The notes beneath the pieces are model-generated. The model did no database searches. It was not told where the DNA came from and saw nothing but the letters and a program-made list of their open reading frames with translations. From Pontiella agarivorans (GTDB lineage Bacteria; Verrucomicrobiota; Kiritimatiellia; Kiritimatiellales; Pontiellaceae), in NCBI RefSeq assembly GCF_034531395.1, contig NZ_JARVCO010000010.1, positions 1,054,001 through 1,118,000 of the forward strand: a DNA stretch of 64,000 bases. The letters run 5' to 3'. Below, one piece after another: positions 48,842 through 55,844 of this stretch. Position numbers and translations under genes: made by a program. Numbering within the stretch: the stretch's first letter is position 1; each line of letters starts with the position of its first letter.

Positions 48842-50101
48842 TCAGCCGCAACCGGCCCCCGAGCCGGTGCATTTTTCTCCGCATTTGGTTTTCCGGAGGG
48901 GCGAACGGACCTCTTCGCCGGCATAAATCCGGCGAAGCGTTTCATCGATCAGCCCCTCCATCACCACCACTTTGAGTCCGGCCTGACGGAGAAAGGCCGT
49001 TGGTTTGGGTCCCACCCCTGAGACGAGGATTGCACGGCAATCGCTCAAATTCTTTGCCAGATCCATCCAGCGTTCCGAACCGCTGCCGGCATCCGGCGTG
49101 GCACGGGTTTCCAGACATTGGAAGAGGCCGTCTTTTTCGCCGAAGATACTCAGTTCGGCCGCTTCGCCCAGATGTTCGTTCACCAGTACGCCCTCGCGGG
49201 TGGCGACGGCCACGTAGGGGCGCTCTTCGTCCGGATTGATCGGCGCGTTGGCGGCTTGTTCCAGTTTTTTGAGCGTATCCTGCGTGGTGCCTTCAGCGAG
49301 CAGGCCGCAGGCATCGGCGCGGCAGCGCTGGCAGTGCGTCATCTGCGGCATATATGTTCCGGCAATATCGCGCGCTTCGTGGATCATGGCCGGGGTCGGT
49401 TCGTCGAGATTTTCGAACATGGTTCCTTCCACCGGGCACATCGGAATAATGTTATGCAGGTCGGCACCTTCGGATTTGGCGAAGGCCGCAACGGCGTCGA
49501 TATGATGATCGTTCACCCCCGGAATCAGGATGGTGTTGATCTTCAGGGTCAGGCCGTGGGCCTTGATGGTTTTCATGGCCTGAATCTGACGCTCGAGCAG
49601 CAGTTCGGCGGCGGCAAGACCGCGCAACGGTTTTTTATGATCGCGCACCCAGCTGTAAACATCAGCACCGATCTCCGGATCAATGGCATTCATGGTGATG
49701 GTGATGTGGCTCACTTTGAGTTCGGCCAGTTCGGCAATGTAGGGGCCGACGCCCAGGCCGTTGGTGGAGACGCAGAGCAGCATGTCGGGATGGCGTTTAC
49801 GGATCAGCCGCAGCGTTTCCATCGTCTGTTCCGGATTGGCAAAGGGATCGCCGGGGCCTGCAATGCCTACGACCGAAATCGGTTTGCCGGATTCCACCAG
49901 ATCGTTGACGTAGTAGAGCGCCTGGCCGGGGGAGAGGACGTTGGAGGTTACGCCGGGGCGGGATTCGTTGACGCAATCGTATTTACGGTTGCAGTAGCCG
50001 CACTGGATGTTGCACTTCGGCGCGACCGGCAGGTGGACGCGACCGTATTTGCCTTTGACATCGGGGTTAAAGCACGGGTGTTTGGTGAAGTCGAGAGGCA
50101 T
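48842..50101 (-). CDS. nifB: FeMo-cofactor biosynthesis radical SAM protein NifB with NifX-like tail
   Basis: A 419-aa enzyme making the 8Fe-9S-C core (NifB-co). The radical SAM motif is Cys30-x3-Cys34-x2-Cys37, and N-E-S-R-P-G-V-T-S follows. After the TIM barrel (to about 290) a NifX/NafY-type cofactor-binding domain (about 305-400) is fused, then a Cys-rich tail. The start at 50101 follows AGGAG. It lies 140 bp after nifN across a large inverted repeat, so it may be in the same transcript with processing. Confidence 0.95.
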   Translation of the reverse strand: MPLDFTKHPCFNPDVKGKYGRVHLPVAPKCNIQCGYCNRKYDCVNESRPGVTSNVLSPGQALYYVNDLVESGKPISVVGIAGPGDPFANPEQTMETLRLIRKRHPDMLLCVSTNGLGVGPYIAELAELKVSHITITMNAIDPEIGADVYSWVRDHKKPLRGLAAAELLLERQIQAMKTIKAHGLTLKINTILIPGVNDHHIDAVAAFAKSEGADLHNIIPMCPVEGTMFENLDEPTPAMIHEARDIAGTYMPQMTHCQRCRADACGLLAEGTTQDTLKKLEQAANAPINPDEERPYVAVATREGVLVNEHLGEAAELSIFGEKDGLFQCLETRATPDAGSGSERWMDLAKNLSDCRAILVSGVGPKPTAFLRQAGLKVVVMEGLIDETLRRIYAGEEVRSPLRKTKCGEKCTGSGAGCG

Positions 50102-50124
50102 GGCTAGCTCCTGGTTTGAGTTGA

Positions 50125-50236
50125 GGGACTGGGCACTAGGCAAAAGGCACTAGTGAAGTCCTGTGGTTCACGTATCTGAGCGGGTATGTTCATGTAAAAG
50201 TATTCCCTAATGCCTAGTTTCCTAGTGCCTGGTCCC
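50125..50236. repeat. Long inverted repeat between nifN and nifB
   Basis: A 16-bp arm at 50125-50140 pairs with 50221-50236, with only two G-T-type wobbles. The loop holds further GGCACTAG and CCTAATGCC pieces that pair less well. The whole nifN-nifB gap can fold in RNA. No T-run follows, so mRNA stabilisation or processing is more likely than termination. Confidence 0.6.
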
Positions 50237-50240
50237 TTAG

Positions 50241-50269
50241 CTCAGATGTAGGTGTAGCCTACATCTGAG
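50241..50269 (-). repeat. Perfect 12-bp hairpin across the nifN stop codon
   Basis: CTCAGATGTAGG (50241-50252) and CCTACATCTGAG (50258-50269) form an uninterrupted 12-bp stem with a 5-base loop. It encodes the last codons of nifN and includes the stop. The adjacent inverted repeat at 50125-50236 makes a second fold directly downstream. Confidence 0.75.
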
Positions 50270-51780
50270 TTCTCTTGTTTCATTTCCATAAGTTTGTCGA
50301 CAATGGTGTCGAACAGCTGCTGGGCGCCCCGGTATCCCAGGTGGAGGGTACGAGGCCCGCTGATCCGGTCGTGGATAGGAAATCCGAAACGGATCAGCGG
50401 GATGCCGGTTTTGCGGCTGAGGCTGAAGCCCTTACTGTTGCCGATGAGCAGGTCGGGTTTCAGATTGAAAGCGGCGATCTCGATTTCGGCAAAGTCGATG
50501 CCTTCGAGGATCGGGGTTTCCGGGGCGAGTTCCGGGGCAGCTTCGCGTATGCATTGGTCGAGCTTACCGCTCTTGCCGCCGGAGGCGCAGAGGACGGGCT
50601 TGAGGCCGATCTCGCAGCAGAAGGCGGTCATGCCGACGACGAAATCCTCTTCGCCGTAGATGACGACCTCTTTGCCGAAGGTGTATTTGTGGCCGTCGAC
50701 ATAGCAGTCGATCAGTCGCCCGCGTTCAGCGTCGTGTTTGGCGGGCAGCGGCCGGCCGGTAATCTGCTCGAGTACGTTGCAGAATTTGTCGGTCTGGCGG
50801 ATGCCGATGGGCAGGCCTACGCGGAAGACGGCCGTGGAAAATTTTTCGTCGAGCAGCGATGCCGCAGACTGTTTGTCGGCGATGGTCGAGGCCAGTTCAA
50901 TCACGGCTGAGGCGCGGCCGAGTTTGGCGATTTCGCGGGCCGGAGTACCGCCGGCCGGAATTTTGTGGTAGTCGCCCCAGACCGGGCCGTCGAGCGGGTC
51001 GGAATAATCGGGAACAATTGAAAAATCCATTTCGAAATCCTCCATCAGTTCCCGCAGGTGACGCAGGTCGGCCGGGGAAACCATGCCGGGGAAAATGCCG
51101 ATAAATTTTTCGTTCGGTCCGTCCACGGCGAGCTGATCGACGATGGCGCGGACGGCCCACTGATAGCCGTCGGCGTGCGAGCCGGAATAGCTCGGGGTGG
51201 AAACGCGCAGAATGTGCGGCGGATCGACTATTTTACGGTCGGCGGAAAGATACTCTTTCACATACATGTTCACATCGTCGCCGATGGTTTCCGCCAGGCA
51301 GGTGGTGGCAATGCCGATCACTTCGGGTTTATAGCCTTCAATCACGTGGGTCAGGCCGTCGAAAAGGTTCCGGCGCCCGCCGAAAACCACGCTCTCTTCG
51401 CCGAAGCTCGACGAGGCAATATCCATCGGTTCGCGGAAATGGCTGATCATGTAGCGGCGGATATAGGTGGCGCAGCCTTGCGAACCGTGGAGGAAGGGGA
51501 GGCAGCCTTCGATTCCACGGAACGCAAGGCAGGCGCCGAGAGGAGCACACAGTTTGCAGGCATTGCGCGTTGCCGTAAAATTTTCGCCGGTAAGTTTTTT
51601 ACCACCCGCTTCGCTGGAGGACACCGAGTGCACGGAGGTACTGTCTCTGTGTTCCTCCGTGCTCTCTGTGGTGAAATTCCCGCCGCTGGGACCGCAGCCG
51701 CATTTGGCTTTATCATCCGCTGTGCAGGCATGGGCCGCATCGTCGACCGGAGCACAGGTTTTTCCGCAGTTGCAGCTCAT
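50242..51780 (-). CDS. nifN: Nitrogenase FeMo-cofactor scaffold protein NifN with repeat insertion
   Basis: A 512-aa subunit of the NifEN scaffold, where NifB-co matures to FeMo-co. The core starts at about residue 75: N-A-C-K-L-C-A-P-L-G-A, H-G-S-Q-G-C and T-T-C-L-A-E-T-I-G-D-D-V are conserved. Two additions precede it: a Cys-rich start (Cys3, 5, 9, 19, 27, 29) and residues about 36-62 encoded by an in-frame palindromic element (51599-51674). The ATG overlaps the stop of the small ORF upstream (ATGA). A perfect hairpin covers the stop codon. Confidence 0.95.
   Translation of the reverse strand: MSCNCGKTCAPVDDAAHACTADDKAKCGCGPSGGNFTTESTEEHRDSTSVHSVSSSEAGGKKLTGENFTATRNACKLCAPLGACLAFRGIEGCLPFLHGSQGCATYIRRYMISHFREPMDIASSSFGEESVVFGGRRNLFDGLTHVIEGYKPEVIGIATTCLAETIGDDVNMYVKEYLSADRKIVDPPHILRVSTPSYSGSHADGYQWAVRAIVDQLAVDGPNEKFIGIFPGMVSPADLRHLRELMEDFEMDFSIVPDYSDPLDGPVWGDYHKIPAGGTPAREIAKLGRASAVIELASTIADKQSAASLLDEKFSTAVFRVGLPIGIRQTDKFCNVLEQITGRPLPAKHDAERGRLIDCYVDGHKYTFGKEVVIYGEEDFVVGMTAFCCEIGLKPVLCASGGKSGKLDQCIREAAPELAPETPILEGIDFAEIEIAAFNLKPDLLIGNSKGFSLSRKTGIPLIRFGFPIHDRISGPRTLHLGYRGAQQLFDTIVDKLMEMKQENSDVGYTYI
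51599..51674. repeat. Palindromic element inserted in frame in nifN
   Basis: A 76-bp element with ends TTACCAC and GTGGTGA, sharing its first 22 bp exactly with 17321-17342 in the SNF2 gene. Translated on the minus strand it gives F-T-T-E-S-T-E-E-H-R plus a Ser-rich run ending E-A-G-G-K-K. It sits just before the conserved NifN core, so it probably lies in a flexible linker. Confidence 0.75.
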
Positions 51781-51920
51781 TTACCGGATCCTTTTTTGTC
51801 TGCGAAGAGGTTGAGCTTACGCAGGTTCTTCTTCGGAGGAAGATTTCTGTCCAGGTCATGAATGCCCATGGCCGTTAAGATTTCATTGATCGAGGTATCG
51901 TATTTTTTCGTGGTCTTCAT
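51777..51920 (-). CDS. Small nif-cluster ORF between nifE and nifN (47 aa)
   Basis: A 47-codon frame in the nifE-nifN gap: basic, with K-Y-D-T-S-I-N-E-I-L near the start and L-P-P-K-K-N-L-R-K-L-N-L-F in the second half. It has an AAGAGAG ribosome-binding sequence, begins 20 bp after nifE and its TGA overlaps the nifN ATG by ATGA. This spacing strongly suggests a real, translationally coupled gene. I do not recognise the family; a role in NifEN assembly is possible. Confidence 0.7.
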   Translation of the reverse strand: MKTTKKYDTSINEILTAMGIHDLDRNLPPKKNLRKLNLFADKKGSGK

Positions 51921-51940
51921 CTTCGTGCTCTCTTTTCCGT

Positions 51941-53299
51941 TTAGGTTCTTTTTCCTGCACGGCGCGGTGCGAACTGCCAGACGGGGCTCATGACGGAGGA
52001 GTGAACTTCTTTGGCAAAGTTGAGCATGCCGATGAAGCCGGCGAGCGCTTCCTTGCGTTCGTGGTTGTGGTCGCAGAAGCCGACGCCGATCTTGTAGGCG
52101 ATGGGACGTTCTTTGACGCCGCCGATGAAGAGGTCGACATCTTTTTCCTTCACATACTTTGCCAGCTCGAGCGGGTTGGTGTCGTCGAGGATTACGGTGC
52201 CCGGATCGCAGAGTTCCGTCAGCAGTTTATAGTCATCCACCGACCCGGTCTGCGAGCCGGCCACCACCACATCCATGCCGAGCGTGCGCAGCGAGCGAAC
52301 CAGCGAAAAGACCTTGAAAGCGCCGCCGGTGTAGACCGCGGCCTTTTTCCCTGTAAGATCTTTCCGGTAGGGCGCGAGCTGCGGCATCAGCTTGGCCACT
52401 TCTTCTTTAATCACGCGCTGTGCGCCCATACGCATTTCATCGTCATCAAAAAAATCGGCCACGTCATAGAGCGCCTTCGACATATCTTCGATGCCGAAGT
52501 AGGAGGCGCGCATCATGGGGGTGCCGTATTCTGTTTCGAGCATCTTTGCCAGATTGCTGACGGAACCGGAGCACTGCACAATATTGAGATGGGCGCGCCC
52601 GGCCTTGCGGATTTCATCGACCCGTCCATCGCCCGAAACCGTGGAAACCACTTTGACGCCCATACGTTCGTAGTAGTCCTTAATAATCCAGATTTCACCG
52701 GCCAGATTGAAGTCGCCGAGAATGTTGATCGACTTCGGGACTTTCTGTGCGTCGGGGTCGTCTTCGCCGACAATTTTAAACAGGGCATCGCAGGCCGCTT
52801 TGTAGCCTTCTTTTTTCGAGCCCTTGAAGCCTTCGGAATCAACCGGGATCACGGGGATACCTTTTTCGTTCTGCACCTTTTTGCAGATCGCGTCCACGTC
52901 GTCGCCGATTACGCCGATGATGCAGGTGGAATAGATAAACGCCGCGCTCGGTTTGTATTCATCGATCAGTTCGCTGATGGCATTATAAAGTTTGCCTTCG
53001 CCGCCGTAGATGACGTCCTTTTCCTGCATGTCGGTGGAAAAGCTCAGGCGGTGCAGCTCGGGACCGGAAGAAAGGGCACCGCGGATATCCCAGGTGTAGG
53101 ACGCGCAGCCGATCGGCCCGTGCACGATATGGATCGCATCGGCGATCGGGTAGAGCACCACACGGGATCCGCAGAAACTGCAGGAGCGCTGGCTGACGGA
53201 GCCAGCAAGACTCTGCTTTTCCGCCTCCATGGCAAATTCGCCGCCTTCATGCACCTGGGCTTTGCGCTTTTCCAACAGATTGATTTTTTCTTCAGCCAT
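51941..53299 (-). CDS. nifE: Nitrogenase FeMo-cofactor scaffold protein NifE
   Basis: A 452-aa subunit of NifEN. Cluster-binding cysteines: Cys40 and Cys43 (R-S-C-S-F-C-G), Cys65 (G-P-I-G-C-A-S-Y-T-W-D), and the Cys of S-T-C-I-I-G-V-I-G-D-D. W-D-I-R-G is typical of NifE rather than NifD. It is the first gene of the second nif unit, with a sigma-54 promoter 31 bp upstream (53330-53345) and a TTCCA-N5-TGGAA palindrome (53307-53321) between promoter and start codon. Confidence 0.95.
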   Translation of the reverse strand: MAEEKINLLEKRKAQVHEGGEFAMEAEKQSLAGSVSQRSCSFCGSRVVLYPIADAIHIVHGPIGCASYTWDIRGALSSGPELHRLSFSTDMQEKDVIYGGEGKLYNAISELIDEYKPSAAFIYSTCIIGVIGDDVDAICKKVQNEKGIPVIPVDSEGFKGSKKEGYKAACDALFKIVGEDDPDAQKVPKSINILGDFNLAGEIWIIKDYYERMGVKVVSTVSGDGRVDEIRKAGRAHLNIVQCSGSVSNLAKMLETEYGTPMMRASYFGIEDMSKALYDVADFFDDDEMRMGAQRVIKEEVAKLMPQLAPYRKDLTGKKAAVYTGGAFKVFSLVRSLRTLGMDVVVAGSQTGSVDDYKLLTELCDPGTVILDDTNPLELAKYVKEKDVDLFIGGVKERPIAYKIGVGFCDHNHERKEALAGFIGMLNFAKEVHSSVMSPVWQFAPRRAGKRT

Positions 53300-53998: not shown

Positions 53999-54724
53999 AT
54001 GAAAAGCGTATTCGTTGTTGGAGCAAGTGGGGCAACCGGTAAATTACTGGTCGCGGATTTACTGGCCAGGGAGTTCGAAGTAACGGTCGTGGTGCGATCT
54101 TCCAGCTCCCTGAGGGGCACCTTTGAAGGTCGATCGAACTACCATGAAGTTACGGGAAGTATTACCGAGATATCGGATGACGAATTACGGCCGCTGTTGA
54201 AAGGTTGCGATGCGGTGCTCTCGTGCCTGGGGCATAATTTGACCTTCAAAGGGTTGTTTGGAAAACCTCGCCGGCTGGTTGCCGATACCGTGGAAAAGGT
54301 CTGCCGGGTTGTTGAAGCGTTAACGCCGGATCGAAAAATTAAAGTGATTCTGATGAATACCACGGGGAACGCCAACCGTGATATCCCGGAACGACCTCCA
54401 TTATCCCAACGGATCGTCGTCTCCATCTTGCGGGTGCTGCTTCCTCCGCATGTGGATAACGAACAGGCGGCCGATATTCTCCGAACCCGCATCGGCCGGA
54501 ATCACGCATTGATTGAATGGGCCGTCGTCCGACCCGACGGCCTCACCGATGAAACAGAAGTTTCAGCATATACCCTTCACCCATCGCCCATCCGGAATGC
54601 CATCTTCGACGCCGGCCAAACCAGCCGCATCAACGTGGCAAACTTCATGGCCAACTTAGCCGCCGATCCAACGCTATGGGACACCTGGAAAGGCCAAATG
54701 CCCGTAATTTACAACAAGGCCTAA
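53999..54724 (+). CDS. NAD(P)-binding atypical SDR oxidoreductase
   Basis: A 241-aa Rossmann protein: V-F-V-V-G-A-S-G-A-T-G-K-L-L at residues 3-16 is the dinucleotide-binding loop of atypical SDR/NmrA-like proteins. A C-L-G-H-N segment follows the fourth strand, and V-V-R-P-D-G-L-T near residue 180 is typical of this group. There is no classical Y-x3-K catalytic pair. It is on the strand opposite to the nif genes and interrupts the cluster. Substrate unknown. Confidence 0.8.
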   Translation: MKSVFVVGASGATGKLLVADLLAREFEVTVVVRSSSSLRGTFEGRSNYHEVTGSITEISDDELRPLLKGCDAVLSCLGHNLTFKGLFGKPRRLVADTVEKVCRVVEALTPDRKIKVILMNTTGNANRDIPERPPLSQRIVVSILRVLLPPHVDNEQAADILRTRIGRNHALIEWAVVRPDGLTDETEVSAYTLHPSPIRNAIFDAGQTSRINVANFMANLAADPTLWDTWKGQMPVIYNKA

Positions 54725-54921
54725 CCTATTTCGGTCGTGACATCATTTTTGTCCACTGATTATTCAGATTATAAGGATTAGACTCTGGAGCCTGGAGGGC
54801 CGGTTAATTATAAATCAGTTTTAAAATCCTAATAATCCGTGGATTGGATTCGGTGTGGCTCCCGCTATTGTATTTTTTGAATGGATCGTTGTAGTATTCG
54901 GATTCGTTTAAGGATGAATCC

Positions 54922-55479
54922 ATGGAAACGAATAGCGTTGAGTATGTTTTTGATGTCGTGAGCACGCAACTGCCAAAAGCAGGTGTTGAGTTTCTCATGA
55001 TTGGTGGGCATGCGGTGAATCATTATGGCTTTAGTCGCGCCACAGTTGATGTGGATTTTATGATCGTTTCAAACGATGTAGCCACGGTTCGGGAAGTTAT
55101 GAAAACGGCCGGTTTTACGAATGTTTCCGATTCAGACAATGTTATTTTCTTTGGCCATCCCGAAAATCCACATCGGGTTGATTTTCTAAAGATTGAACAG
55201 GATTCGATGGACAAACTCATCAAATCCGCTGAAGTAATTGATTACTCAGGTTATCGACTAAAAGTTCCGGGGATTTCAGATCTGATAGCAATGAAGCTGT
55301 TTGCTGTCAGTCAGGGTTCACTGCAGCGTGAAGAAAAGGATCTTCTTGATGTCGTCAATCTGGTTCAAGAGTGTGGCTTGGATCTTAAATTGATTCGCGA
55401 GCTATGCGATCGATACGCAAGTGATGATGTGTATTCGAAGGTTGAAAGCCGAATGAGTGGAGAGGAAAAAGATGGTTAA
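54922..55479 (+). CDS. Nucleotidyltransferase of the AbiEii/MNT type
   Basis: A 185-aa protein. The motif G-G-H-A-V-N-x-Y-G-F at about 28-37 and V-D-V-D-F at about 46-50 are the G-[GS] and D-x-D signature of polymerase-beta-fold nucleotidyltransferases; R-V-D-F-L near residue 90 gives the third Asp. Such proteins are often toxins or antitoxins in AbiE- or MNT/HEPN-type modules. The next gene overlaps it by 8 bp. It sits within the nif cluster on the opposite strand, and 54725-54921 upstream holds only A/T-rich sequence. Confidence 0.8.
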   Translation: METNSVEYVFDVVSTQLPKAGVEFLMIGGHAVNHYGFSRATVDVDFMIVSNDVATVREVMKTAGFTNVSDSDNVIFFGHPENPHRVDFLKIEQDSMDKLIKSAEVIDYSGYRLKVPGISDLIAMKLFAVSQGSLQREEKDLLDVVNLVQECGLDLKLIRELCDRYASDDVYSKVESRMSGEEKDG

Positions 55480-55645
55480 TTTTCCAAAGCTTGGAAATGT
55501 TGAAGAGCCTCCTGTGCGTAAAATGACGCCCGAAGAATATCTTCGTTTTTGTGACTTCTGCTTAAAAGCCAATCCGCATATCACAGCGGAAAACTGCATG
55601 GACCGAAATCCCGTCGAGATCTCGGTTCCTTTTAGCGTTCGCTGA
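55472..55645 (+). CDS. Small partner of the nucleotidyltransferase, unknown function
   Basis: A 57-aa protein from the ATG at 55472, which follows a GAGAGGAAAA sequence. The upstream frame overlaps the nucleotidyltransferase end. It contains R-K-M-T-P-E-E-Y-L-R-F-C-D-F-C and a third Cys near residue 42. Coupling suggests a two-gene module, perhaps toxin-antitoxin-like. A TTCCA-N5-TGGAA palindrome (55482-55496) lies in its first codons. Its end overlaps the convergent CCE_0567-type gene by 14 bp. Confidence 0.6.
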   Translation: MVNFPKLGNVEEPPVRKMTPEEYLRFCDFCLKANPHITAENCMDRNPVEISVPFSVR

Positions 55646-55844
55646 GTGCTGAATTTAATTCATTCTGTTTGGTCTGCCACGCCTTGCAGGCGTTGTAGGC
55701 GGCTTCCGATACCGCCGGTATATCTTCGAATTCAGCCCACAGCCGATCCTCGATCAAGTCATGAAGATCGCCGGCCTTTTGCCCGGCAATAAATTTCAGC
55801 CTGGTTACCTGTTTTTCAAGATCTTTGATTTCTTCTGTGCTCAT
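55632..55844 (-). CDS. CCE_0567-type nif-associated protein (Rop-like, DUF683)
   Basis: A 70-aa helical protein. L-E-K-Q-V-T-R-L-K and L-H-D-L-I-E-D-R-L match the Rop-like family of nif clusters, whose cyanobacterial member CCE_0567 binds metal. It is predicted to be a two-helix hairpin that dimerises. It is the last gene of the first nif unit. Its precise role in nitrogenase maturation is not established. Confidence 0.78.
   Translation of the reverse strand: MSTEEIKDLEKQVTRLKFIAGQKAGDLHDLIEDRLWAEFEDIPAVSEAAYNACKAWQTKQNELNSALSER

Follow-up and report, generated by a model that had tools for sequence, protein, structure and literature searches.

Several families of small proteins are encoded in or near nif operons, among them the Rop-like proteins (CCE_0567, PF05082), NifT, NifW, NifZ, CowN and FdxN. 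Bacterial operons also harbor orphan small genes, which are short, evolve quickly, occur in a few close species and run onto the next gene through an ATGA overlap. Here we compare with both groups a 47-codon open reading frame (ORF) lying between nifE and nifN in Pontiella agarivorans, an anaerobic marine diazotroph for which acetylene reduction has been measured in strain NLcol2 (PMC10880615). Like the small nif-operon genes, the ORF is short and lies among nif genes, but its product matches no Pfam or NCBIfam model (no family at E up to 1) and lacks their broad distribution. From orphan small genes it differs in nothing that we tested; its position at the nifE–nifN junction is its only special feature. 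We consider it likely that this ORF is a genuine, young, lineage-restricted small-protein gene, confined to P. agarivorans and one sister species (genome G025).

The window, a 64,000-nt stretch of the P. agarivorans genome, carries the locus on its minus strand in the order nifE (53299..51941), ORF (51920..51777), nifN (51780..50242) and then nifB. The nifE product scores above the TIGR01283 cut-off (631 bits). The nifN gene, identified by PF00148 and its position downstream of nifE, is of a NifK-like type and falls below both equivalog cut-offs, with 270.1 of 326.8 bits for the nifN model (TIGR01285) and 314.6 of 427.3 bits for the nifK model (TIGR01286). Automatic naming may therefore miss this gene, and the low scores may explain why nifN is not among the genes named for NLcol2 (nifH, nifD, nifK, nifB and nifE) in the available part of the published description (PMC10880615). 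The same cluster encodes a Rop-like PF05082 protein (55632..55844). Between this gene and nifE, the minus-strand nif genes are split by three plus-strand ORFs within 53999-55645: an NAD(P)-binding-like ORF (53999-54724) and a nucleotidyltransferase-like ORF (54922-55479), both named by eye from their sequences, and a third ORF at 55457-55645.

The first-pass annotation described the ORF as short, basic and filling the nifE–nifN gap, and this description holds: the 47-residue product, MKTTKKYDTSINEILTAMGIHDLDRNLPPKKNLRKLNLFADKKGSGK, has a net charge of +6 and a pI of 10.0, and the ORF takes up 140 of the 160 nt between the nifE stop and the nifN start. The ATGA in which its TGA overlaps the nifN ATG is also present as claimed (51777..51780, minus strand) and is shared with G025. 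The 5' end offers one usable start among ATG, GTG and TTG codons, the first ATG. The ribosome-binding site had been called good but is moderate, consisting of a Shine–Dalgarno-like GAGAG in the 20-nt minus-strand spacer after nifE (51921..51940) with a predicted anti-Shine–Dalgarno duplex energy of −4.1 kcal/mol; the corresponding values are −3.3 for nifE, −7.1 for nifN and −11.0 for nifD. In G025 this spacer is longer and contains GAGG (−5.9 kcal/mol). The nifN Shine–Dalgarno sequence, AAGGA, lies within the final codons of the ORF (51781..51794, minus strand), and AAGGA is found in G025 as well. Prodigal and similar gene callers take genes down to about 90 nt, and it is doubtful that length cut-offs would cause an ORF of this size to be overlooked, as had been proposed.

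Much of the case for a coding sequence comes from comparison with the G025 homologue (L056:7781-7921), which occupies the same gap on the same strand with the same ATGA. The two products share 26 of 46 residues (57% identity over 47 columns), and the sole indel between them is one whole codon. All tests of selection use this one pair, the only two sequences known. A two-sequence codon model gives an omega of 0.133 (2ΔlnL 14.8, P 1.2e-4 against omega = 1), with the strongest constraint over codons 1–29 (omega 0.095, P 1.9e-4) and weak constraint over the last 17 codons (omega 0.29, P 0.18). The omegas of forward frames +1 and +2 of the same region are 1.2 and 8.2. One antisense frame also scores low (omega 0.16, P 1e-3, with two of 46 codon pairs dropped because of stops or frame ends); such values can arise when frames share the wobble position, and codon usage in that frame is not gene-like. 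Differences at codon positions 1, 2 and 3 number 15, 8 and 25 (binomial P 0.006 for position 3), and a run of synonymous changes, TTA>CTG among them, falls in S10–M18. Codon usage is gene-like in the ORF frame alone in both species; in P. agarivorans this frame scores +0.27 per codon, no other frame exceeds 0.00, and none of 3000 shuffles scored as high.

These results bear most directly on the idea that the spacer is non-coding and the frame open by accident. An ORF this short, found in two species, with other Pontiella spacers at this position lacking it, would fit such an accident, and about one in three simulated frames stays open under random mutation. However, when simulated sequences diverged to the same extent, the fraction that kept an open frame with equal residue identity was only 3e-4 to 5e-5. 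The codon-model result, the position-specific changes, the codon usage and the whole-codon indel all argue against an accident, and the sequence separating nifE from the ORF, by contrast, is of unequal length in the two species and aligns poorly. We therefore regard a spurious frame as improbable. As judged from these sequence comparisons, the ORF is very probably a protein-coding gene and more than a product of chance, and we hold with considerable confidence that it is translated and under selection.

A broader survey shows how narrowly the gene is distributed. Within the class, nifE is present in 23 of 346 genomes. We fetched the nifE regions of the other 22 and read the sequence following nifE in 21 of them and in the window, the last contig ending inside nifE. 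The ORF occurs in two of the 23 genomes, P. agarivorans and G025, and was not found in 10 other Pontiella diazotrophs or in 11 further nifE-bearing members of the class. Closely related Pontiella that carry nifE and nifN lack it both in the gap and in the rest of the genome. A profile built from the two proteins found no credible further copy in 334 class genomes, and a single-sequence search of 387 genomes of the phylum found no relative besides a chance match; this match, in G580 (E 0.0094), is antisense to rpoB and was rejected. The other weak matches from the class search that we inspected bear no resemblance to the ORF. We also examined 80 further nifE loci, mostly from anaerobes of other phyla, and about 75 of these had a readable nifE–nifN junction. 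None of these junctions, most of them from other anaerobic diazotrophs, contains a relative of the ORF, and their commonest arrangement is a nifE that directly overlaps nifN. Scans of plasmid, phage, viral and genome-contig collections likewise found no relative, although these searches, which for the genome and viral contigs used a pattern from the two-row alignment, could miss very divergent relatives of low identity. The product also has no credible match in PHROGs and only chance-level matches among solved structures, and a search of the literature for a gene in the nifE–nifN gap found no mention of one. In the collections searched, relatives are thus confined to close species. The first-pass annotation had listed a lack of amino-acid conservation among its refuting conditions; conservation is seen with one sister species and nowhere else.

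This distribution also bears on the suggestion that the ORF encodes a NifEN-specific assembly factor. With two occurrences among 23 nifE-bearing genomes of the class and none at about 75 further junctions from the genome collection, a general role of this kind is excluded, and since nifE and nifN occur without the ORF in close relatives, its product is not generally required for NifEN assembly.

We also considered where the gene came from. In the nifE tree, P. agarivorans and G025 are sisters (support 98/95) nested among genomes that lack the ORF, so that a single gain is a simpler history than repeated loss. Most other Pontiella have a nifE–nifN spacer of roughly 90–135 nt without the ORF, and several of these contain, as judged by eye, a short sequence resembling an inverted repeat (CACAAAGACACAAA ... 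with its complement); in G006, nifE is closely joined to nifN. DNA similarity between the ORF and the other Pontiella spacers does not reach significance once the 18 comparisons are taken into account (lowest P 0.017), and derivation from these spacers was rejected on this basis. The ORF has also changed much more rapidly than the sequence on either side of it, third positions included: there, 25 of 46 codons differ between the two species, and the figures are 5 of 100 for the opening codons of nifN and 105 of 451 for nifE. The sharp step into nifN could mean that recombination replaced the ORF, that the 5' end of nifN was recently homogenized, or simply that codon constraint in the ORF is weak.

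The divergence step, together with the patchy presence of the ORF and its lack of a nif homologue, would fit a captured gene that is unrelated to nitrogen fixation and simply rides in the operon, and genes of other kinds on the plus strand already break up this nif cluster. Against capture, neither a donor nor a relative appears in any collection searched, and the position of the ORF has been kept in both species. We consider capture possible but rather unlikely.

The arrangement at the nifN start raises a different possibility, that the ORF is a coupling leader whose translation reloads ribosomes at nifN via the ATGA and sets NifN levels, the peptide itself being inert. Both the overlap and the placement of the nifN Shine–Dalgarno sequence inside the ORF are common to the two species, and the weak constraint on the C-terminal codons is in line with a leader. 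Yet a leader needs no constraint on its residues, whereas the N-terminal half of the ORF is its most constrained part; nifN in other Pontiella is preceded by a simple spacer and has a ribosome-binding site of its own; and RNA structure is not unusual (z −0.21), with neither a conserved structure nor an Rfam element found. An inert leader is therefore improbable. The ORF is probably both co-transcribed with nifN and translationally coupled to it.

If the ORF is a young small-protein gene, as we favor, it would be transcribed with nifE, nifN and nifB and translated beside nifN, and its product would be expected to appear with NifEN under nitrogen-fixing conditions. The structure model of the product contains a helix of fair confidence at residues 5–17, with a mean pLDDT of 81 for residues 11–20, and little else; the model as a whole is poor (mean pLDDT 64, pTM 0.26). 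Most of the conserved SINEILTAM segment falls within this predicted helix, and the segment may form a short amphipathic helix with I11, I14, L15 and M18 on its hydrophobic face, followed by a variable basic tail. Such a peptide might be a dispensable accessory that docks on a partner, and NifEN would be the most plausible partner because of co-expression. Only position ties the product to NifEN, and a NifEN-linked role is doubtful; the more specific proposal, that within one Pontiella lineage NifEN or NifB is modulated by a basic helical peptide, newborn or newly captured, is unlikely. In that case, a young gene would be joining the conserved FeMo-cofactor assembly line, and action on NifEN would mean that the cofactor scaffold of cluster III nitrogenases still gains lineage-specific parts. 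Otherwise, the ORF is a further instance of a small young gene that has settled in a conserved operon, and it cautions against inferring function from gene position alone. It is probably a real gene, young and small, of an ordinary kind and in an interesting place.

The neighboring nif genes have features of their own. Codons 36–60 of nifN contain an in-frame 74-bp dispersed repeat (51602-51675, minus strand) that occurs in 10 copies in the genome at E below 1e-4, this one included. The insert is common to G025 (96.7% identity over 90 nt) and is absent from NifN of the other Pontiella examined. NifN also begins with a Cys-rich extension (residues 1–30; 51691-51780, minus strand) of the form MSCxCGKTCAP...C...DKAKCGCGP or close to it, which is possibly a metal-binding tail. 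The extension is present in nine of 12 nifE-bearing Pontiella, the other three having a short N-terminus, and none was seen in the NifN proteins of other anaerobes used for comparison. NifB (48842-50143, minus strand) has a Cys motif, KCTGSGAGCG, at its C-terminal end; tails like it are common among the NifB proteins of the other anaerobes compared, and this one is ordinary.
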